Both the position numbers and the translations under genes were made by a program. A stretch of DNA of 64,000 nucleotides from Eubacteriaceae bacterium (GTDB taxonomy: Bacteria > Bacillota > Clostridia > Eubacteriales > Eubacteriaceae), in the NCBI GenBank assembly GCA_030156895.1, contig JASGLP010000006.1, positions 1 to 64,000 of the forward strand, given 5' to 3'. Of this stretch, positions 200 through 15,747 are shown piece by piece. The notes beneath the pieces are model-generated. The model was not told the DNA's origin, searched no databases, and saw only the letters and a list, made by a program, of their open reading frames with translations. The stretch's first letter is position 1. Each line of letters begins with the position of its first letter.

Positions 200-1412
200 A
201 TGGCTCAATTAAATATTACACTGGATACAGAACTTTTGCACGGACTTTTTACAAAAGATTCCCGGGATGATGCATTTTCAAAGTTGATGGAAGCAATCCT
301 GAATCAGGTGCTTGTAGCGCAATCAGCAACAGCTTGGAGCACAGCCTTATGAGCGATGTAAAGAGCGTACAGCCTATCGCAATGGCTTTAGAGAGCGCGA
401 CTTGACAACACGTATCGGTGGGATCACCTTATGGGTGTCGCGCCATCGTAACGGCGAATTCAGCACAACGATGTTTCAGCGATACCAGCGCAGCGAGCAG
501 GCTCTGATGCTTACCATGATCGAAATGGTCATTAATGGCGTATCAACGCGAAAAATCGAGAACATCACAGAAGAACTGTGTGGTCAGAGTTTTTCTAAAT
601 CAACGGTTTCAAAGCTGTGCGAAAATCTGGATCCGATTGTAGAAGAATTCCGTCAACGGCCGCTTGAAAAACACTATCCCTTTGTTATTGTGGATGCCAT
701 GTATATCAAAGTTCGTGAAGACAATCGCGTTCGATCAAAGGGATTGCTGATAGCAACTGCGGTTAACGAGAATGGCAATCGTGAAGTCATTGGCTTTCAG
801 ATCAGTGATACGGAATCCGAAACAAGCTGGGGCGATTTCTTTAACGAACTCAAACAACGGGGTTTATCTGATGTTGATCTGATCGTGTCTGATAATCACA
901 AAGGGCTTGTAAATGCCATCAAAAAGCATTTTCAGGGTTCCTCCTGGCAACGCTGTCAAACCCATTTTTCAAGAAATATACTGGATAAAGCACCCAAAAA
1001 TCAGCAGCCGGAATTAAAACGCCATCTGAATCGGCTGTACAACACAGGCACCATTGAAGAAGCTCGTTGCCTTCTGAAAGAGACGCTGGCAAACATTGAA
1101 TCAAAGGCTCCCAAAGCAATGGCGCTGCTTGAAGAAGGTTTTGATGATGTGATGTCTGTTATGAGTCTTCCTGAAAAATACCGGAAACGGCTACGCACCA
1201 CTAACAGCATTGAACGACTGAACGAGGAAATAAGACGTCGCGATCGTGTGATCCGTATTTATCCCAATGAACAGTCCGTTATTCGATTACTAGGCGCTTT
1301 GCTGATAGAGCAAGATGAAAAATGGTCTTCTGGCAGAAAATACTTTGATATGGAAGAATATTATGAATTTATCAATTCTCGTCCATCTGATCATCCATTT
1401 GCCGCTGCTTAA
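200..1412 (+). pseudogene. IS256-family (mutator-type) transposase, frameshifted
   Basis: DDE transposase. The reading frame begins at ATG 200 (start MAQLNITLDT) after an AGGAG-like site and runs until a TGA at about 350. Homology continues in another frame from about 324 (QQLGAQPYERCKERTAYRN), so a 2-bp loss or 1-bp gain lies near 326-331. The catalytic region is otherwise intact: first Asp in VDAMYIK, second Asp in VSDNHKGL, the conserved WQRCQTHF block, and the Glu in TNSIERLNEE. Repairing the frame gives about 404 residues, the usual IS256-family length. As it stands the protein lacks its N-terminal part unless a start inside 402 onward is used. IS256 elements are not known for programmed frameshifting, so decay or a sequence error is the simplest reading. 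Confidence 0.85.
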
Positions 1413-4923: not shown

Positions 4924-6075
4924 TCATTTTAATGAATTAACCAGATCCATGACTTCGTAGAGTGACATATTTGAATTGCTTGCAATTTTTTTTAGATCTT
5001 CATATTCCGGACTTTCACGGTGGATATTTCCGTGATCAACAACTTTCAATTTAACATCGCCATATGGTGTAGTCACTGTACGGAAAGAGCGATTCATACA
5101 GGTTCGGGTAACAGGATATTTTCTGATACCGATTGTTGATGTTTCTTTTAAGATTAATTCTTCCAACAAGTTAAGCTTGCTTTCGTGACAAAGCACTGTT
5201 AAATGAATGCCCGGCCTGTTTTTTTTCATATACACAGGGGTATAAAAAGCATCCAAAGCACCAGACTGCATCAATTTTTCAAGTACAAAACCTGCCATTT
5301 CACCAGTCATATCATCCATATTGGTTTCAATCACCATGGTTTCCATGGAATCAGATTTTTCACCTTGTATGATTCTAAGGGCATTTAGAATCCCAAAATC
5401 TTTTGTACCAAAACCGTAACCGGTTTTTTGCGGAATAAAAGCAGGTGTTTGAGCAGAATAGCTTGCCAGCTCGGCAAGGATGGCAACACCAGTTGGGGTT
5501 GCTGATTCGCCGTCAATTGCCCTTGAATAGATTTCAAAGCCGGAGTCGCAAAGAATTTCAGCAGTTGCTGGAGCAGGGACGGGGAGTAGTCCGTGAGCAC
5601 ATCGAACCCATCCGCTTCCGACATTAATTTTAGAACCATAAACCAGGTCAGGTTTTAAATGATGATAACAAATTGATGCACCAACAATATCGACAATTGA
5701 ATCCAGCGCACCCACTTCATGAAAATGCACCCGTTCCACGGGCACATTGTGAACTTTTCCTTCAGCAAGTGCTACTCTTTTAAAAATAGCCAGTGCAGTT
5801 TGCTTAACGGTGTCTGAAAGTGTCGAATTCATAATAATTCTTTCAATGTCTGAAAAATGTCGATGCTGATGGGGTTCATTGACAATATTCACGTGACACT
5901 GGATTCCGCTGATACCTTTTTTCATTGTTTTCTCGGCTTGGATTTCAAATTCCGAGATGTTGAGTTTTGCCAGTTCACTAATCAACAAATCCGCATCCAT
6001 CCCTAAATCGATAAAAGCCCCCAGTACCATATCGCCACTTATCCCTGCAAAACAGTCAAAATATAATGTTTTCAT
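4924..6075 (-). CDS. larC: LarC, nickel-insertion enzyme of the nickel-pincer cofactor
   Basis: 383 residues. LarC uses CTP to insert nickel into the pyridinium-3,5-bisthiocarboxylate mononucleotide that LarA-type enzymes carry. Visible hallmarks are DCFAGISGDM at the N-terminus, HFHEVGALDSIVDI near residue 120, ESATPTGVA near 190 and ETNMDDMTGE near 245. In Lactobacillus plantarum LarC is made from two frames by ribosomal frameshifting; here it is one continuous frame. It starts 26 bases after larB and is the last gene of the operon. larE (sulfur transfer) and larA are not in the window. That leaves the pathway incomplete locally and the apo-enzyme unknown. Confidence 0.9.
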   Translation of the reverse strand: MKTLYFDCFAGISGDMVLGAFIDLGMDADLLISELAKLNISEFEIQAEKTMKKGISGIQCHVNIVNEPHQHRHFSDIERIIMNSTLSDTVKQTALAIFKRVALAEGKVHNVPVERVHFHEVGALDSIVDIVGASICYHHLKPDLVYGSKINVGSGWVRCAHGLLPVPAPATAEILCDSGFEIYSRAIDGESATPTGVAILAELASYSAQTPAFIPQKTGYGFGTKDFGILNALRIIQGEKSDSMETMVIETNMDDMTGEMAGFVLEKLMQSGALDAFYTPVYMKKNRPGIHLTVLCHESKLNLLEELILKETSTIGIRKYPVTRTCMNRSFRTVTTPYGDVKLKVVDHGNIHRESPEYEDLKKIASNSNMSLYEVMDLVNSLK

Positions 6076-6101: not shown

Positions 6102-6851
6102 TTATATTTTATTAATCTTAGAAGCCATACAGGCAGCACCGAAACCGTTATCGATATTGACGACACCAATCCCACTGGCACAGGAAGTCAGCATCCCTAA
6201 AAGAGCAGAAACACCGCCGAAATTTGCCCCATATCCAATACTGGTGGGAACGGCAATGATTGGCTTATCGGTTAATCCGCCGACGACAGATGCCAAAGCG
6301 CCTTCCATGCCAGCAACGACGATGATCGTTTTGGCGTCATTAATGATCGAAACATTATTCAATAATCGGTGAATGCCGGCGACACCGACATCATAGAGCC
6401 GTTTAACCTGATTACCCATGACAGTCGCCGTTATAGCCGCTTCTTCGGCAATTGGTATATCAGCGGTACCTGCGGATACAACCAGAATATAGGAATCTGT
6501 TGTTTTATATTCCTGGCGCTTCACTACAACAGAACGGGCTTCCTCATAATAAATGGCGTCATCGGTCACTGATTTAACTACTTCATAGACTGATAAGTCT
6601 GCTCGCGATGCCAGGATATTTCCCTGTGAACGTTTGAGCATGTTTTGTACGATTCCTTTGATTTGATCGAGGGATTTTCCGGGACTGTAAATAACCTCGG
6701 GGTATCCATTTCTGAGTTCCCGATGATGATCAACTTTTGCATATTCAAGATCCTCATAGGGGAGAATTTTCAGCTGATTGAGAGCAGTTTCAATATCACA
6801 TTGATCATTTTTTACTTCAAGTAGCAGGGTTTTAAGTTGTTCAATATTCAT
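6102..6851 (-). CDS. larB: LarB, nickel-pincer cofactor carboxylase/hydrolase
   Basis: 249 residues. LarB carboxylates the pyridinium ring of nicotinic acid adenine dinucleotide and cleaves it to the mononucleotide, the first step to the nickel-pincer cofactor. The C-terminal half is PurE-like: VVSAGTADIPIAEEA (about residue 125), DVGVAGIHRL, VVAGMEGALASVVGGL and PTSIGYGANFGG. It follows the ligase gene by 27 bases with a TTGGAGTG ribosome site, so it belongs to the long operon. Lone LarB-like proteins exist outside lactate racemization, but LarC next door argues for true cofactor synthesis. Confidence 0.92.
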   Translation of the reverse strand: MNIEQLKTLLLEVKNDQCDIETALNQLKILPYEDLEYAKVDHHRELRNGYPEVIYSPGKSLDQIKGIVQNMLKRSQGNILASRADLSVYEVVKSVTDDAIYYEEARSVVVKRQEYKTTDSYILVVSAGTADIPIAEEAAITATVMGNQVKRLYDVGVAGIHRLLNNVSIINDAKTIIVVAGMEGALASVVGGLTDKPIIAVPTSIGYGANFGGVSALLGMLTSCASGIGVVNIDNGFGAACMASKINKI

Positions 6852-6878: not shown

Positions 6879-8729
6879 TTAATTCTGGTTAAGAAAGTCG
6901 TTCATTTCCGCTAGTGTGAGATTGTTTCTGAAAGATTCAAAATCATATTCCTTCTGATATTTTCTCTCTAAATGGCCAATTAAATCTGAAAAATAGAGAG
7001 AGTCCCCGCCCAAGTCATTGATAAAATGACTGTCGCTACCTATTTGGCTAAGGGGTATTTTTAAAATCTGACTCCATATTTGAGCCAGTTCCAGGCATGA
7101 TGAGTCAATTTCCTGATCAACTTCTGGCCCTAATGAATGGGCCTTATTTTCAAAAAGACCTTTTTCCCAATTCACTGCAAGGGTTAAACGGTCTGTTTTA
7201 CCTGACGAGTTTTTAGGAATTTCGTCAATTAAAACGCCAAAATCGATTGATATCTGCCATGTTTTTTTGATTTCCTTTGCAGCGTCAACGAGTAAATCCA
7301 GATCATTTGAATCAGAAAAAATTACCAGCAAATTCTTTTCACTTGTTTTATCCTTAACTTGAACGATCACCAGTTTGCCATTTGTAATTTTACTTTGAGC
7401 GGTTCGCTCAAGATCATTGACCAGATAGTTTTGGCCATTTACAATAACAATATCTTTATATCGTCCGTAAATGGTCAGCCAGCCTTGATGAAAAAAACCC
7501 AGATCGCCCGTATTAAAAAATCCCTTGTCATCAATTACCTGATTTGTGGCAGCATCATCATGGTAATAGCCTTGCATGACATTCGTGCCCTTGATATGAA
7601 CAAGTCCCAGATATTCTGGAGGTAAATCATTTCCTTGAAGATTTCGGATGACCACTTGATTACATTCATCCAGAACACCAACAGAAACACGGCTGATTGT
7701 ATCTTCGTCAGGATCACAGAAAAAAAGCTTATGGCCGATCTGCAGATTATCACTCAGAAAGTGTTCAACCCGAAAGCTCTGACCAATTGGTGTATAAGAA
7801 ACCCCCATGGTGGTTTCACTTAGTCCATAGGCTGGTTTTAAAGTATTCTTTTGCCAACCCAAGGATAAGGCAGCTTCTTCGAAGTTCCTCAGAGTATTTG
7901 GGTTTACATCTTCACCCCCACAAAAACAGATGTAAACATTTGATAGATCAATGGGAGAATGCGGTTTTATGCCGGTATTTAAAAGTAATTCCAGGCCAAA
8001 AAGTGCAGCGCCGGTCATCGTTGTCCCAAATTTTGAAAGCTTTTCAAGCCAAGAAATTGGATTTTTTATAAATACCATGGGATGTATCAAGTATTGAGGG
8101 AAATCGTTGACCAAAGGAACCAGATGATATCCCACAAAACCAAAGCAATGAGACAGGGGAAGCCAACTCAGATAGCGTTCAGTCACACCTTTACGCACCA
8201 CAATACTACTGGCCAATCCACCTTCATAAAGATTCTTTTGGCTTAAGAGGGCTCCTTTTGCTTTATTAGTAGTACCCGATGTAAACTGAATCATTGCGGG
8301 ATCAGACTCTAAACAGTTTTCAATTAAACCGGCTTCAGAATTTATTAAAACAGGATACATCAAGGCCTTAATACCTTTAACGGTGCTTAAACCATGAAGG
8401 TCGGTCAGCACTGTTGCTGATTCCATAGTATTCAGGACGGATTTTAGGCTAGCCCGGGATTTTTCGTCCTGAGCGATGGGGAGGATTGAAAAAATGATTC
8501 CTCCCAGCATTGCTGCCCAGCTTGCAGTAATTTGTGCTTGAACACTTTTAAGCTGCAAAACAAGCAGATCATTTTTTTTCAAACCCTGATTTTGCAGTCC
8601 ACCCAATAATTTTACAGCGTTATCAAAAAGTTCTGAATAGCTAATTGTCGTTTCGATGCCATCAGACTCGCAGAAGCTAATCGGTGTAAGGCTTTTTTTA
8701 AGCGCAATAATCGAATTATTGATAATCAT
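6879..8729 (-). CDS. Acyl-AMP ligase (acyl-CoA synthetase family) with C-terminal carrier domain
   Basis: 616 residues. The ANL adenylation domain spans about 1-530. It has the nucleotide loop FTSGTTNKAKG (about 155), YGLSETTMG (about 310), NTGDLGFF (about 415), GRYKDIVIVNG, and the late catalytic lysine in PKNSSGKTDR. A phosphopantetheine carrier domain follows, with the attachment serine in DLGGDSL (about residue 577). The enzyme therefore probably activates an acid as acyl-AMP and loads it onto its own carrier arm rather than onto CoA; this is inference from the fusion. The start is ATG at 8729 with GGGGAG 4 bases upstream; a TTG four codons earlier lacks a site. The substrate is unknown. 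Confidence 0.85.
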   Translation of the reverse strand: MIINNSIIALKKSLTPISFCESDGIETTISYSELFDNAVKLLGGLQNQGLKKNDLLVLQLKSVQAQITASWAAMLGGIIFSILPIAQDEKSRASLKSVLNTMESATVLTDLHGLSTVKGIKALMYPVLINSEAGLIENCLESDPAMIQFTSGTTNKAKGALLSQKNLYEGGLASSIVVRKGVTERYLSWLPLSHCFGFVGYHLVPLVNDFPQYLIHPMVFIKNPISWLEKLSKFGTTMTGAALFGLELLLNTGIKPHSPIDLSNVYICFCGGEDVNPNTLRNFEEAALSLGWQKNTLKPAYGLSETTMGVSYTPIGQSFRVEHFLSDNLQIGHKLFFCDPDEDTISRVSVGVLDECNQVVIRNLQGNDLPPEYLGLVHIKGTNVMQGYYHDDAATNQVIDDKGFFNTGDLGFFHQGWLTIYGRYKDIVIVNGQNYLVNDLERTAQSKITNGKLVIVQVKDKTSEKNLLVIFSDSNDLDLLVDAAKEIKKTWQISIDFGVLIDEIPKNSSGKTDRLTLAVNWEKGLFENKAHSLGPEVDQEIDSSCLELAQIWSQILKIPLSQIGSDSHFINDLGGDSLYFSDLIGHLERKYQKEYDFESFRNNLTLAEMNDFLNQN

Positions 8730-8746
8730 GTAACTCCCCAAATTTT

Positions 8747-9490
8747 TTAAATCATGGTATAACCGCCATCAACGGCGATTGTCTGACCAATAATAAAATC
8801 GCTGCCGGAAGAAGATAAGAAGGAAATGACACCAAAAAGATCTTTTTCATGACCCAAACGGCCGGCAGGTGTATTTTTGATATGTTCAGTCAAAGCGTAT
8901 TTAGGAAAGTTAGATTTGGCCATATCGGTTTCAATGACACCAGGAGCTATGGCATTTACCTGAATGTTCAAGCGGGCTGCTTCACGAGCCAGTGCTTTTG
9001 TAAAAGCAATAACCCCGCCTTTTGCGGCAGAATAATGGGTAAAACCCAGACCACCCACACGGCCAGCGATTGACGCAACATTAATTATTTTACCGGCCTT
9101 TTGTTTTTCCATCACTTTGTAGACTTCATGGGTAGCCAAAAAAGTTCCATTTAAATCAATATCAATCACTGACTTCCAGTCATCATAAGTCATGGCTGAA
9201 AAAGTTTTAACCGGAAAGACACCAGCATTATTGATTAGCACGTCAATTTTACCATACTTTTCTAGAACGATTGAAACCATATTTTTGATATCATCTTCTG
9301 AGGAGATATCACATTGAACAGCAATCGAGTCCGTGGTCAAACTATCTGCAGCGGCTTGTGCCGTTTCGATGTTACGACCAATGATAACAATTTTGGCACC
9401 TTCCTCAGAAAGATGTTTGGCGATGGAAAAGCCGATTCCCCGTGATGATCCGGTAATGATGATGACTTTGTTTTCGTGGATTTTTTCCAT
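8747..9490 (-). CDS. Short-chain dehydrogenase/reductase, FabG-like
   Basis: 247 residues, starting at ATG 9490 (MEKIHENKVIIITG). The Rossmann motif is TGSSRGIG and the structural motif NNAG is present. The catalytic Ser, Tyr and Lys are in NVASIAG and HYSAAKGG. It ends in a typical GQTIAVDGGYTM. Such enzymes reduce 3-oxoacyl or oxidise secondary alcohols with NAD(P)H. In this operon, between a lipoyl domain and a carrier-fused ligase, a carrier-bound acyl or lipoamide-linked substrate is possible but unproven. It starts 1 base after the lipoyl gene's stop, so translation is probably coupled. Confidence 0.88.
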   Translation of the reverse strand: MEKIHENKVIIITGSSRGIGFSIAKHLSEEGAKIVIIGRNIETAQAAADSLTTDSIAVQCDISSEDDIKNMVSIVLEKYGKIDVLINNAGVFPVKTFSAMTYDDWKSVIDIDLNGTFLATHEVYKVMEKQKAGKIINVASIAGRVGGLGFTHYSAAKGGVIAFTKALAREAARLNIQVNAIAPGVIETDMAKSNFPKYALTEHIKNTPAGRLGHEKDLFGVISFLSSSGSDFIIGQTIAVDGGYTMI

Positions 9491-9491
9491 T

Positions 9492-9728
9492 TTAAGCCTC
9501 GATTTCTCCGATGATCTGTCCAACCAAAACTCGGTCACCCTCTTCTGACAGTAGCGCTGTTAAGCTACCATCTGCTGGAGCCTCAATATAAATTGAAATT
9601 TTATCGGTAGCCGCTTCAGCGATATTATCACCTTTTGCGACAGTCGCGCCTTTTTCCACAAGCCATTGTCTTAAATTGATTTCTTCAGCACCTTCGGCAA
9701 ATTCTGGTACAACAACATCATATTTCAT
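9492..9728 (-). CDS. Free-standing lipoyl-domain protein
   Basis: 78 residues, a single biotinyl/lipoyl domain. The attachment lysine lies in the tight turn EAATDKISIYIEAP, close to the canonical ETDKA/V turn of lipoyl domains and unlike the biotin-type MKM. The rest follows the fold: a VPEFAEG start, WLVEKGATVAKGD, and a GDRVLVGQIIGEIEA end. No E2 catalytic or E1-binding part follows, so it must act as a mobile arm in trans, like GcvH or the lipoyl-binding proteins of sulfur metabolism. lipB directly upstream supports lipoylation rather than biotinylation. Confidence 0.88.
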   Translation of the reverse strand: MKYDVVVPEFAEGAEEINLRQWLVEKGATVAKGDNIAEAATDKISIYIEAPADGSLTALLSEEGDRVLVGQIIGEIEA

Positions 9729-9738
9729 AATAGTCTCC

Positions 9739-10425
9739 TTAAGTATTTAATTTAGTAAGCTCTTGGGATTTTGTTCCAAACATTTGATTGAATTCTTCAA
9801 TAAAGACATCTCGCAATATTTTTATGTCCGGTACAAAAACGCCAGCATTTTTAAATGAAGTAACATCCCGATCTTCTATTCCACAGGGGATGATGGTTTT
9901 AAAATGATTTAAATCAGGATTAAGATTGATGGAAATACCATGAAAGGCAATTCCATGGGCGACAGCAATACCAAGTGCGGCAATTTTTTTTTCGGCATTG
10001 CTGCTTGGATCGTAAATCCAAACGCCGCTTTTACCTTTAATCCGAAAGCCAGTTAGTTCAAATCGTGATAGCAGATTAATCATAATTTGTTCCAAGAGTC
10101 TGACGTACTGATGCGCACCTTTAACATGATTTTCCAGATAAAGAATGGGGGAAACAACCAATTGTCCGGGGCCGTGATAGGAAATATCACCGCCTCGGGA
10201 CACTTGCGTTATTTTAATGCCCATTTTTTTTAGCGATTCAGGACTTTTTAAAAGATTTTCAGGATGTGACCCTCTTCCCAAAGTGATAATCGGTGTATTC
10301 TCCTGAAATAATAAAGTCTCATTCATTCGACCGTTTCGGATAGCTTCAATAATGCTTTCCTGGATTTTAAAAGCGTCGTGATAGTCAATCAGGCCAAGAT
10401 CAAGCCAGTTTAAAGTTTTTTTCAA
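9739..10425 (-). CDS. lipB: Octanoyltransferase LipB
   Basis: 228 residues. It transfers octanoyl from acyl carrier protein to the lysine of lipoyl domains; LipA then inserts sulfur. Motifs are RGGDISYHGPGQLV (about 75-90), the catalytic lysine in KKIAALGIAV and the acyl-thioester cysteine in PCGIEDRDV. It overlaps the regulator gene by 4 bases and precedes the lipoyl-domain gene by 10. A lipoylation enzyme dedicated to that domain is therefore likely. lipA is not in the window. Confidence 0.95.
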   Translation of the reverse strand: MKKTLNWLDLGLIDYHDAFKIQESIIEAIRNGRMNETLLFQENTPIITLGRGSHPENLLKSPESLKKMGIKITQVSRGGDISYHGPGQLVVSPILYLENHVKGAHQYVRLLEQIMINLLSRFELTGFRIKGKSGVWIYDPSSNAEKKIAALGIAVAHGIAFHGISINLNPDLNHFKTIIPCGIEDRDVTSFKNAGVFVPDIKILRDVFIEEFNQMFGTKSQELTKLNT

Positions 10426-12389
10426 AGAAATTCCTCCAGATGATGAAATCTCATTTTTCGATAAAGGGTACTTCTCGAGATCCCCAGATATTCGGCTGCT
10501 TTTGTTTTTTGAGGATACAATTCAAGCGCTTTTTTAATAGTTTTCAATTCCAGATCCTTCAGATCAATCGATGTTTCTTTTATATTTTTTTCTGAATGGT
10601 GCTTGACTGCTTGATGCTGGGCGCTTGAGAAAAAATCAGTGATAAAGAATTCATCAATGCGGTTTGTTTCAGTAAAATTCACAGCTCTTTCTATGGCATT
10701 TTTAAACTGTCTGACATTGCCTGGCCAATCATATTTTTCAAGTAATGCCAGCGTGGAAGGACGCAGAGGTTCAATATTTTTCTGATATTCCTGATTGATT
10801 TCATTAAGAATGTAATTAGCCAGCACAGGAATATCAAGATGTCGGGAACGTAGCGGTGGAATATTAATTTGTAAAACGTTCAGTCGATAATAGAGATCTT
10901 GCCTGAATTTGCCATTTTGTGCTTCTTCAGCCAAGTTTTTATTAGTCGCGGCGATCACCCTAACATCAATTGGAATATCCTTTGTGCCGCCAATTCGTTG
11001 AATAATGCGTTCCTGTAAAACACGGAGTAAAACAGTTTGAACATGAAGGGGCATTTCACCAATCTCATCTAAAAAAATGGTTCCACCCTTAGCTAATTCA
11101 AATTTACCAATTTTTCCATGTTTACTGGCACCGGTGAAAGCACCTTCTTCATAACCGAAGAGAATACTCTCAATCAGACTTTCTGGGGTTCCGGCACAGT
11201 TGACAGCAATAAAAGGTTTATCAGATTGATGAGCATTATGAATCGCCTGAGCAAACATTTCTTTTCCTGTACCACTTTCGCCCTGCAAAAGTACAGTTGA
11301 GCTGCCTTTGGCGGCTATTTGCGCCAGATGGACAGAACGCATGAGTTCAGAGCTGACACCGATAATATCATCAAAGGTAAAGCGCGTCCCTTTTCGGCAG
11401 TGCTTATCCCGTTTGGAAGAATTGAGATCCTTGAGGGTCGCGACTGCACCAGCAACCTGGCCATTTTCATGAAGAATCAGTTTGCGATTAATCAGGCAGT
11501 TAATCTTATTGCTCTTTGTGATAATATGTTTTTCTGCTTCGGCGGGCAAAGGATTTCCCTTTTCATCGAGAATTGTTTCACCTTCCATAATATCAAGAAT
11601 ATTCTTCCCGAAGGAATCAAAGGTGGTGGTTTTGAGGATTTTTGCGCCGTTAGAATTTATACCAATAATTTTACCGTTTACGTCCACCGCCACGACGCCA
11701 TCAGAAATTGAATCAATGAGGGTACTTAAATAATGATTCGTCAGTTCAATTTGACGATTTGATGCAGCGATATAAAGCTCCCTGCTGATTGCTTTTGTAA
11801 CAGCCACAACCATACCCAGAGTATGAGGATAGGTTAATTCTTTGGGACCTGTCATATCAAGAACACCGATTAAAATACCACTTTCGTCGAAGATAGGAGC
11901 CGCTGAGCAGGTTAAATCATGATAACATTCATAATAGTGTTCAGCACCGATTACTTGAATTGGTTGCTGTAAATCTATAGCCAAGCCAGTAGCATTTGTT
12001 CCAGCCTGTTCTTCATTCCAGATACTACCGCGAACCAGATTTTTGTTAAAAGCTTCATCAAGAATGCTTTGGTCACAAATCAGTTCCAGAATAACGCCCT
12101 CAGTATCGGTCAGGGTGGTCGAGAAACCGGATCTATTGACAAATTCCTGTAATTCAACCATAAATGGAATCGCAGTTTTTAGCAGAAGCTGATTTTTTTC
12201 AAGTCTTTTTTTAAAGTTTTCCTCACTAACAGATGGGGTTCGGTTTAGCGAACGGGGATTCATTTTTCTTTTTTGACACCGGATCCAAGAGTCCAAAATC
12301 GGCTTTCTTAAATTCGTACCAATCACGTCATGGTCTACAAAATTTAGCCAATCTTTTTGGATATCGTCAAAGTCTGAATGAATTTTCAA
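10422..12389 (-). CDS. Sigma-54 activator, AcoR-like (GAF-PAS-AAA+-Fis)
   Basis: 655 residues. An N-terminal GAF-type sensor (about 50-210) is followed by a PAS segment (about 220-320). The AAA+ domain (about 325-560) has Walker A GESGTGKE, the sigma-54 contact loop GAFTGA and FLDEIGEMP. A Fis-type helix-turn-helix is at the C-terminus (KAAEYLGISRSTLYRKM). The layout is that of AcoR, the acetoin operon activator, but no acetoin dehydrogenase genes are present. I chose the TTG start at 12389 because AAGGAG lies 9 bases before it. An ATG at 12422 has no comparable site. It probably drives the sigma-54 promoter at 13853-13869, and so its own operon. The inducing ligand is unknown. Confidence 0.9.
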   Translation of the reverse strand: MKIHSDFDDIQKDWLNFVDHDVIGTNLRKPILDSWIRCQKRKMNPRSLNRTPSVSEENFKKRLEKNQLLLKTAIPFMVELQEFVNRSGFSTTLTDTEGVILELICDQSILDEAFNKNLVRGSIWNEEQAGTNATGLAIDLQQPIQVIGAEHYYECYHDLTCSAAPIFDESGILIGVLDMTGPKELTYPHTLGMVVAVTKAISRELYIAASNRQIELTNHYLSTLIDSISDGVVAVDVNGKIIGINSNGAKILKTTTFDSFGKNILDIMEGETILDEKGNPLPAEAEKHIITKSNKINCLINRKLILHENGQVAGAVATLKDLNSSKRDKHCRKGTRFTFDDIIGVSSELMRSVHLAQIAAKGSSTVLLQGESGTGKEMFAQAIHNAHQSDKPFIAVNCAGTPESLIESILFGYEEGAFTGASKHGKIGKFELAKGGTIFLDEIGEMPLHVQTVLLRVLQERIIQRIGGTKDIPIDVRVIAATNKNLAEEAQNGKFRQDLYYRLNVLQINIPPLRSRHLDIPVLANYILNEINQEYQKNIEPLRPSTLALLEKYDWPGNVRQFKNAIERAVNFTETNRIDEFFITDFFSSAQHQAVKHHSEKNIKETSIDLKDLELKTIKKALELYPQKTKAAEYLGISRSTLYRKMRFHHLEEFL

Positions 12390-12494
12390 AGCTTCACGCT
12401 CCTTTTTATAAATTAAGTTCATCCAGACAAAATAATCAATGGACTGATGTGTGATGGGGAGATCCCACCACACACCAGTTTTATAAAGAATTGA

Positions 12495-13796: not shown

Positions 13797-13852
13797 GATA
13801 TTCTCCTTCTAAATATTTATTCTGTTCAACAAGTGAACATATAAATACTTGT

Positions 13853-13869
13853 TGCAAGAATTATGCCAA
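13853..13869 (-). promoter_or_regulatory. Sigma-54 (-24/-12) promoter
   Basis: Reads TTGGCATAATTCTTGCA on the minus strand. GG and GC are separated by exactly 10 bases, as required for sigma-54 (consensus TGGCAC-N5-TTGC). It lies about 57 bases before the DUF362 start codon. Confidence 0.88.
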
Positions 13870-13920
13870 GTAATTTTACTGTTTAAAACGGATGAAAAGT
13901 GGTATTATCTTTAGGGAAAC

Positions 13921-13968
13921 TGTGTCATGTGTCATATCGACACACAATAAGTGTGTCATGATGACACA
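13921..13968. promoter_or_regulatory. Upstream activator sites for the sigma-54 regulator
   Basis: Two palindromes are spaced 24 bases apart: TGTGTCATGATGACACA (13952-13968, perfect) and TGTGTCATATCGACACA (13928-13944, one mismatched pair of steps). A half-site TGTGTCAT is at 13921-13928. They lie about 60-115 bases upstream of the -24 box, the usual place for enhancer-binding-protein sites. Confidence 0.82.
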
Positions 13969-14026: not shown

Positions 14027-14056
14027 CTGTCAAAAAAAATAAATGTCTGATATAAT
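14027..14056 (+). promoter_or_regulatory. Sigma-70-type promoter of the flavoprotein fusion gene
   Basis: CTGTCA, 18-base spacer, TATAAT, about 30 bases before ATG 14086. It is divergent from the sigma-54 operon, so the activator sites at 13921-13968 lie between the two genes. Confidence 0.5.
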
Positions 14057-14085: not shown

Positions 14086-15747
14086 ATGCAAAAGGTTTTG
14101 GTTTTAAACGGAAGTCATAAACAATATAGAAGCTACACAATGAAAGTTACGGAAGCTTTTCTTGCTGGATTGACACAAAATAATGACGGCATCGAAACAG
14201 AGATCATCAACCTGCGAGAGAAAAATATCCTGCCCTGCACTAGTTGTTTTAACTGTTGGACTAGTAGCCCGGGCGAATGCATTCAACAAGACGAAATGAA
14301 AGAATTGCTGGAAAAATACCAGGAGGCAGATCTGGTGATTTGGTCGACACCTTTGTATCATTATGGCATATCAAGCACAACAAAAAACTTTATTGAACGA
14401 ACATTACCCTTATTGCTGCCTTTTATTGATCCGGAAGGAGGAGATATTTATGGCCATCCTTATCGAGATCAGGAAAAGATGAAAGCTAAGAGACATCTTT
14501 TGATCAGCACTTGTGGACTACCAACACAAAAAAACAATTATGAGAGTGTCTTTGCGCAATTTAATAATCTTTTTGGCAAAAACAAATGGGAAAAAATTAT
14601 TTGTGTTGAGGGAGAGCTTTTAGGTGTTTCACAGTTGGATGTTCATACTAGTCCTTATCTTGATCTGGTCAAATTGGCCGGAGAAAAATATGGTGAATTA
14701 AATACAATCCCGCTAGATCTGAAAAAGGGTTTGGATAAGCCATTTGTTGAAATTCCTACTTACCTGAAAACTGCTAATCTAAAGTGGGGAATTGATGACA
14801 CCCGATTTAAAGAATCCGATGGTGGATTGCTGGGCTGGGAAATGTTTAAGGGGATCGAAGGGGCCTTTAATGCCAGGGTGAGACCAGGTCTTGATGCGGT
14901 TCTGGAAATTGAACTTACGGATGTGAAAGAGTGTTATCAGCTGATTGTTAAAAACAATCATTGTAATCTGATTGCTAATGATTTGCAGAAAGCGACAACT
15001 ACTGTTAAAACACAGCTGACGACATTTGAACGTATTATTGATGGCAACTTTGATTTGGGACAGGCCATTATTGATAAACGCTTTGTTGTGAATGGCGATT
15101 TTGCTATTATAAACGCAATGATGGATGGCTTATTTGGGAATCTGTCTTTTCATGGCGAACGCAGTAAGAAAATGATTCCAATTTCATTTAATAACACGCC
15201 ATATTGGTTTATTTTAACCATGATACCCTGGTTCTTCTGCCAGCTGATTGTGGATACCAATCCATCGGTAGCCGTTGTTCTGGCTTTATTGATGAGCGGC
15301 TTTTTATGTGCTATCAAAAAAGGTCAGGAATTGGTGTTTTTTGACAAGGTCACCTTACTATATTTTTCGCTATTGGCAATCGTAACCATTCCAGATCAAT
15401 TAATGATTGATGAGGCCGTCATTGGATCGGTGACTTATTTTGTTTTGATGGTGATTTTTCTGGCCTCTATATTCAAGACGATTCCTTTAACAGCAGATTA
15501 TACGCATTTTTTAGTGGGTAAAAATGCCCTGAAAGATGTTCTGTTTATTCGCACAAATCGTCTGATCAGTTTTGTGTGGGCGATGGTTTGTCTGATTCAG
15601 GGGATCACGGCAGCGCTTTTATCAACCATGTTTTTGTCAGCTTTTGCAACCATGATTCCGCTTATTTTATGGATTCCAGTGGTTATCTTTTCTTTATGGT
15701 TTATAAAATGGTATCCAGCGAATCTGGCTAAAGCAAGTAGTCGCTAA
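14086..15747 (+). CDS. Iron-sulfur flavoprotein / SCP2 / membrane-domain fusion
   Basis: 553 residues in three parts. Residues 1 to about 210 form an FMN-reductase (flavodoxin-like) domain (VLVLNGSHKQYRSY, WSTPLYHYGIS). It carries the compact cysteine motif CTSCFNCW...GEC that in iron-sulfur flavoproteins binds a 4Fe-4S cluster. About 230-340 resembles a sterol-carrier-protein-2 domain (FERIIDGNFDLGQAIIDKRF). About 345-550 holds five or six hydrophobic helices. A GGAAAGGAG site precedes the ATG. The fusion suggests membrane-anchored electron transfer to a lipophilic acceptor. That is inference, and I know of no characterised member. Confidence 0.75.
   Translation: MQKVLVLNGSHKQYRSYTMKVTEAFLAGLTQNNDGIETEIINLREKNILPCTSCFNCWTSSPGECIQQDEMKELLEKYQEADLVIWSTPLYHYGISSTTKNFIERTLPLLLPFIDPEGGDIYGHPYRDQEKMKAKRHLLISTCGLPTQKNNYESVFAQFNNLFGKNKWEKIICVEGELLGVSQLDVHTSPYLDLVKLAGEKYGELNTIPLDLKKGLDKPFVEIPTYLKTANLKWGIDDTRFKESDGGLLGWEMFKGIEGAFNARVRPGLDAVLEIELTDVKECYQLIVKNNHCNLIANDLQKATTTVKTQLTTFERIIDGNFDLGQAIIDKRFVVNGDFAIINAMMDGLFGNLSFHGERSKKMIPISFNNTPYWFILTMIPWFFCQLIVDTNPSVAVVLALLMSGFLCAIKKGQELVFFDKVTLLYFSLLAIVTIPDQLMIDEAVIGSVTYFVLMVIFLASIFKTIPLTADYTHFLVGKNALKDVLFIRTNRLISFVWAMVCLIQGITAALLSTMFLSAFATMIPLILWIPVVIFSLWFIKWYPANLAKASSR

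Follow-up and report, generated by a model that had tools for sequence, protein, structure and literature searches.

A conserved sigma-54 promoter with two putative activator sites precedes an operon of nickel-pincer cofactor genes and a DUF362 protein of predicted LarA-like fold

Sigma-54 regulons governed by one-component PAS/GAF activators have been described in the Clostridiales (Nie, Dong and Yang 2019, PMC6615313), with promoters that follow the consensus TTGGCATNNNNNTTGCT and a single target operon for 65% of the activators. SigL is reported for A. bakii (PMC6239172). The cofactor of lactate racemase, the nickel-pincer nucleotide (NPN), is made by LarB, LarE and LarC (PMC11770544), and in the LarA of L. 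plantarum it is carried by Lys184 (PMC9283937, PMC12611868). DUF362 and the LarA family are placed in one Pfam clan, CL0471 (PMC11770544). In the literature searched, no DUF362 protein is described as NPN-dependent, and nothing was found on DUF362 or the nickel-pincer cofactor in Acetobacterium; the operon with a nickel chaperone that A. wieringae has for isoprene reduction was considered and set aside as a different system. The locus described here brings these elements together within a 64 kb stretch of DNA, referred to below as the window, whose host is an Acetobacterium-like acetogen.

An earlier note on this DNA had named a GG-N10-GC sigma-54 element in front of DUF362, and such an element is present on the minus strand (Table 1). 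It reads TTGGCAT-AATTC-TTGC-A, with GG at 13867-13866, GC at 13855-13854 and a spacing of exactly 10 bases, and it agrees with the Clostridiales consensus at 11 of the 12 specified bases. TTGGCATN5TTGC occurred once in the window, compared with a mean of 0.07 in 200 dinucleotide-preserving shuffles. A sigma-54 gene is present in the same genome (PF04552, E 2.3e-57). Judging from the position of the GC, transcription would be expected to start near 13842, about 12 bases further on.

Two palindromes lie upstream of this element. The distal one is an exact TGTGTCATGATGACACA and the proximal one is a near copy, TGTGTCATATCGACACA, with 2 mismatches relative to the 8-base arms first proposed; both are perfect when read as TGTGTC-N5-GACACA, i.e., as 6-base arms around a 5-base spacer. 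Their centre-to-centre spacing is 24 bp. Distances in Table 1 and below were measured between the palindrome end and the initial T of the -24 element; with the -12 GC as the reference point, the two sites span about 74-114 bp, which bears out the claim of a palindrome and a near copy some 60-115 bases upstream. The exact palindrome did not occur in any of 200 dinucleotide-preserving shuffles of the window, and the exact promoter and palindromes are far above chance. Several orthologues have an extra half-site comparable to the one that abuts the proximal palindrome here.

Table 1. Coordinates of the promoter, putative activator sites and operon features in the window
Feature	Position	Strand	Remarks
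Distal putative activator site TGTGTC-ATGAT-GACACA	13952-13968	.	82 bp upstream of -24 element
Proximal putative activator site TGTGTC-ATATC-GACACA	13928-13944	.	58 bp upstream of -24 element
Extra half-site TGACACA	13927-13921	minus	abuts proximal palindrome
Sigma-54 -24/-12 promoter TTGGCATAATTCTTGCA	13869-13853	minus	GG-N10-GC; upstream of DUF362
DUF362 protein, 433 aa	12495-13796	minus	operon gene 1; PF04015 E 6e-53; predicted LarA-like N-terminal fold, Cys-rich C-terminal domain
Conserved hairpin between DUF362 and activator genes	12443-12479	minus	no T-run after stem
Sigma-54 activator, 655 aa	10422-12389	minus	operon gene 2; probable start TTG 12389
LipB-type octanoyl transferase	9739-10425	minus	
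FabG-like short-chain dehydrogenase (SDR)	8747-9538	minus	true start probably near 9490
Acyl-AMP ligase with C-terminal carrier (PP-binding) domain	6879-8741	minus	
LarB, NPN biosynthesis	6102-6851	minus	NF033503 290 bits, cut-off 175
LarC, NPN nickel insertion	4924-6075	minus	PF01969 E 4e-147; TIGR00299 and NF052512 above cut-off

Conservation was assessed in 14 orthologous promoters including the window's own, 12 of them Acetobacterium-type and two from Eubacterium. In the alignment of DNA upstream of DUF362, TTGGCAT-N5-TTGC was invariant in all 14 and the flanks were variable. In eight promoters the proximal palindrome was separated from the -24 element by 58-59 bp and in the other six by 69-71 bp; the distal site, where recognised, was placed at 82 or 92-93 bp; some orthologues had only a single clear palindrome. 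The two distance classes are approximately 11 bp apart, which is about one helical turn and is as expected of an enhancer constrained to face the promoter. The putative sites are palindromic, upstream, conserved and in helical phase with the promoter, as a UAS should be. Because the genomes compared are related, the independent events behind this conservation are fairly few. In the nearest relative compared (G012, a complete genome), whose DUF362 is 98% identical to that of the window, the sites are TGTCTC-ATTTA-GACACA and TGTCTC-TAAAT-GAGACA; the second has changed in both arms together, and the literal TGTGTCAT arms given at first are not kept there (the arms being TGTCTC/GAGACA).

The palindrome had also been put forward as a motif for finding other targets of the activator, but a genome scan produced none that was convincing. 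The 3.0 Mb draft genome contained these two copies of the exact palindrome and no others. With up to 2 mismatches there were 41 forward matches, compared with 45 for the reversed-pattern control, and the two sites with one mismatch were both within coding genes. In two genomes, the window's own and the complete one of G012, the pattern TGTSTC-N5-GASACA was confined to the DUF362 promoter. A promoter-linked scan of 40 family genomes (TGACA followed by -24/-12) recovered the DUF362 promoter in many Acetobacterium, with other matches near the control level, and the generalised motif, scanned for in five genomes, pointed to no further convincing target. On the evidence of these motif scans, this looks like a one-promoter circuit. 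A lone perfect TGTCTCGTTTGGAGACA, situated away from the operon in another genome (G017:C1:437640-437656, L189), may be a second target or may be due to chance. Plasmid records searched with the promoter region returned one weak, unrelated match.

Gene order in the window and its orthologues is DUF362, activator, LipB, SDR, AMP-ligase/ACP, LarB and LarC, with LarE added before LarB in the Eubacterium operons. In every orthologous locus, the LipB/FabG-like SDR/AMP-ligase-ACP set (6879-10425, minus strand) separates the activator gene from the NPN genes. The activator combines GAF and PAS domains, a GAFTGA-bearing AAA+ domain and a Fis-type HTH, the make-up of an enhancer-binding protein. Its translation probably begins with the TTG at 12389, which follows a conserved AGGAG and from which the orthologues align; the GTG start listed at 12473 was rejected on this account and because it falls inside the hairpin. 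Close orthologues of the activator came from Acetobacterium and two Eubacterium species (62-74% identity over the best segment), after which identity dropped to 43%. Since the activator is the second gene of the same operon in orthologous loci, autoregulation is likely, as had been suggested. The earlier statement that no other sigma-54 activator is in view is correct for the window; it does not extend to the genome, where three further full sigma-54 activators are encoded. One of these is HPr-like at its N-terminus and has dhaK-like genes as neighbours, as in the known DhaQ system.

The strong hairpin between the first two genes has had its sequence replaced between species with its pairing kept, 10 of 12 consensus pairs having changed on both sides (L205, L023-L033). 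It was rejected as an intrinsic terminator, there being no T-run and no terminator match. Its role is probably to stabilise or process (trim) the message, which would result in more DUF362 than downstream products. Beyond the palindromes, a divergent gene (14086-15747, plus strand) has flavodoxin-like/FMN-reductase, SCP2-like and probable membrane parts; it is conserved beside the operon in Acetobacterium and not in Eubacterium, and a sigma-70-type promoter match for it is found at 14027-14056. A Mutator-family transposase (PF00872) is located at 402-1412 (plus strand), near the window edge.

The operon's DUF362 protein did not match PF09861 (Lar_N), and PF04015 was its sole match. No solved DUF362 homologue was found by sequence, single-sequence matches being marginal, and profile-search matches to ferredoxin domains only were discounted as an effect of ferredoxin-bearing members of the alignment. 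A first structural prediction using 12 close orthologues only was poor (pLDDT 49) and was discarded. The model used here (pLDDT 79.5) was built with 12 close orthologues plus 12 more distantly related DUF362 sequences encoded on viral contigs. VIA-align superimposed this predicted model on the LarA N-terminal domain with Z 17.3 (219 residues, rmsd 3.1), while the next unrelated fold scored Z 6.1. Foldseek gave E 2.7e-6 for the same model, and all 19 matches at E <=0.001 were LarA-family chains or 4nar, which itself matches the LarA profile. As modelled, DUF362 has the LarA N-terminal fold (clan CL0471). The LarA matches do not extend into the Cys-rich C-terminal part (about 320-433).

Profile comparison (E 8.8e-4, probability 23%) aligned His178 and Lys188 of DUF362 with H173 and K183 of LarA, at the same 10-residue spacing; H173 and K183 are read here as His174 and Lys184 of L. 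plantarum LarA. By alignment only, therefore, putative equivalents of the catalytic His174 and the cofactor-bearing Lys184 are present in DUF362. For His108 (the second catalytic base of LarA) and His200 (a nickel ligand), the candidates are His110 and either His207 or His198, which are within or next to loops modelled with low confidence. One relative's LarA protein matched the DUF362 profile model weakly (E 1.9e-4), just below the curated cut-off. Asn65, Lys176, His178, Lys188, His207 and Asp230 were invariant in the window protein and 27 other DUF362 members; His110, His198, His241 and further Cys residues mark the subfamily to which the window's protein belongs.

This subfamily was present in 19 of the 40 family genomes, and LarC was present in 18 of those 19. 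No match to PF09861 was found in the window's genome (85% complete), in G007 (98%) or in G012 (one 3.39 Mb contig, 100%), each of which has both LarC and LarE; LarB and the operon context were not readable in G007. The sole LarC of G012 lies in the DUF362 operon. The window's genome has a second, longer LarC (455 aa frame) outside the operon, at G000:C7:38181-39467. Given that G012 has the genes for making NPN and no recognised LarA, DUF362 is the obvious candidate client.

The regulatory observations are, with high probability, best explained by a sigma-54 promoter with two activator sites and an autoregulated circuit confined to a single operon; of the earlier interpretation, the paired-site sigma-54 promoter and the likely autoregulation are retained, and the prospect of further targets through the palindrome is not. 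Sigma-54 RNA polymerase would wait at the -24/-12 element, and the GAF-PAS activator encoded by the second gene would bind both palindromes, and probably the abutting half-site also. On binding of some small molecule by the sensor domains of the activator, the promoter would open, leading to transcription of DUF362, the activator itself (i.e., positive autoregulation), the LipB/SDR/AMP-ligase-ACP acyl-processing set, LarB and LarC. The circuit would be local, with one promoter per genome. Transcription would have to continue through the hairpin into the activator gene, and the hairpin could limit such read-through, which is a point against this explanation, as are the single clear palindrome of some orthologues and the relatedness of the genomes compared. 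Were the palindromes bound by some other regulator, whether another activator or a repressor, the sigma-54 promoter would still be real but there would be no autoregulation. The three other full activators in the genome speak for this; however, it is the operon's own activator that travels with the sites in Acetobacterium and Eubacterium, the palindromic sites are found nowhere else in the genome, and the HPr-like activator beside dhaK-like genes resembles the DhaQ system, leaving another regulator improbable. Less probable still is that the palindromes act mainly as an operator for a sigma-A-like promoter of the divergent gene at 14086: in Eubacterium that gene is absent, yet the promoter and palindrome remain, and the sites are in helical phase with the sigma-54 promoter, despite the sigma-70-type match ahead of the gene and its divergent position in Acetobacterium orthologues too.

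The function of the operon's first protein is more finely balanced. There is perhaps an even chance that DUF362 is an NPN enzyme outside the LarA family, in which a LarA-fold domain would bind NPN through the Lys188/His178 region and be joined to a Cys-rich C-terminal domain, with a substrate tied to the LipB/SDR/AMP-ligase-ACP set and with production on demand through the sigma-54 switch. It is also quite possible, if somewhat doubtful, that LarB and LarC serve a LarA encoded elsewhere, and that DUF362 has a role outside the nickel cofactor, e.g., in redox or metal chemistry carried out by the Cys-rich domain. LarA is after all present in most Acetobacterium genomes, the lactate racemase gene of A. 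woodii adjoins its lactate dehydrogenase and permease genes (PMC10472528), and the same His and Lys occur in ferredoxin-domain DUF362 proteins, whose genes showed no lar genes in the short flanking stretches. Such a role is harder to reconcile with G012, where the operon, a LarE and one LarC are all present and yet LarA is not recognised, or with G007 (LarB and operon context aside) and the window's draft genome, which are alike in this respect; it also sits poorly with the position of DUF362 at the head of the operon, with its being the best conserved of the operon's genes in Acetobacterium comparisons, and with its predicted LarA N-terminal fold. If DUF362 does prove to be an NPN enzyme, this would be the first cofactor-based function for one of its members.

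The switch represents a clean, conserved case of a known type, and its single-target sigma-54 promoter is usable in acetogen work. The operon ties DUF362, to which no function has been assigned, to the nickel-pincer cofactor, and there is a complete Acetobacterium genome in which the genes for making the cofactor are present without a recognised user. One operon now allows a direct test of the use of NPN by proteins other than LarA.

Relative to the regulons described in PMC6615313, the promoter has the same consensus and the sites are of the same type (TGT-N11-ACA here, TGT-N10-12-ACA there), and both have several sites per promoter, an activator gene beside its target, and one target operon. 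The window's activator and target are absent from Table 1 of that study, and its sites are nearer the promoter (58-99 bp, as opposed to the usual 100-250 bp). NifA/FhlA-type sites (the TGT-N10-ACA class, cited in PMC6615313) are likewise upstream inverted TGT/ACA repeats, for AAA+ activators with a Fis-type HTH; those of the window differ in their longer specific arms, TGTSTC/GASACA, and in their target pathway. The NPN system of LarA, LarB, LarC and LarE (PMC11770544, PMC9283937) is shared to the extent that LarB and LarC are in the window's operon, while LarE belongs to the operon in Eubacterium and lies apart from it in Acetobacterium genomes. The operon departs from that system in having no Lar_N (PF09861) protein, and DUF362, which features in PMC11770544 as an outgroup only, has a different, Cys-rich C-terminal domain. 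Within DUF362 (PF04015), the window's protein stands apart in being without a C-terminal ferredoxin domain and in its linkage to NPN genes. What is new here is the target, the contents of which the earlier note had not seen: an operon behind a sigma-54 promoter that contains NPN genes and a DUF362 protein of predicted LarA-like fold.
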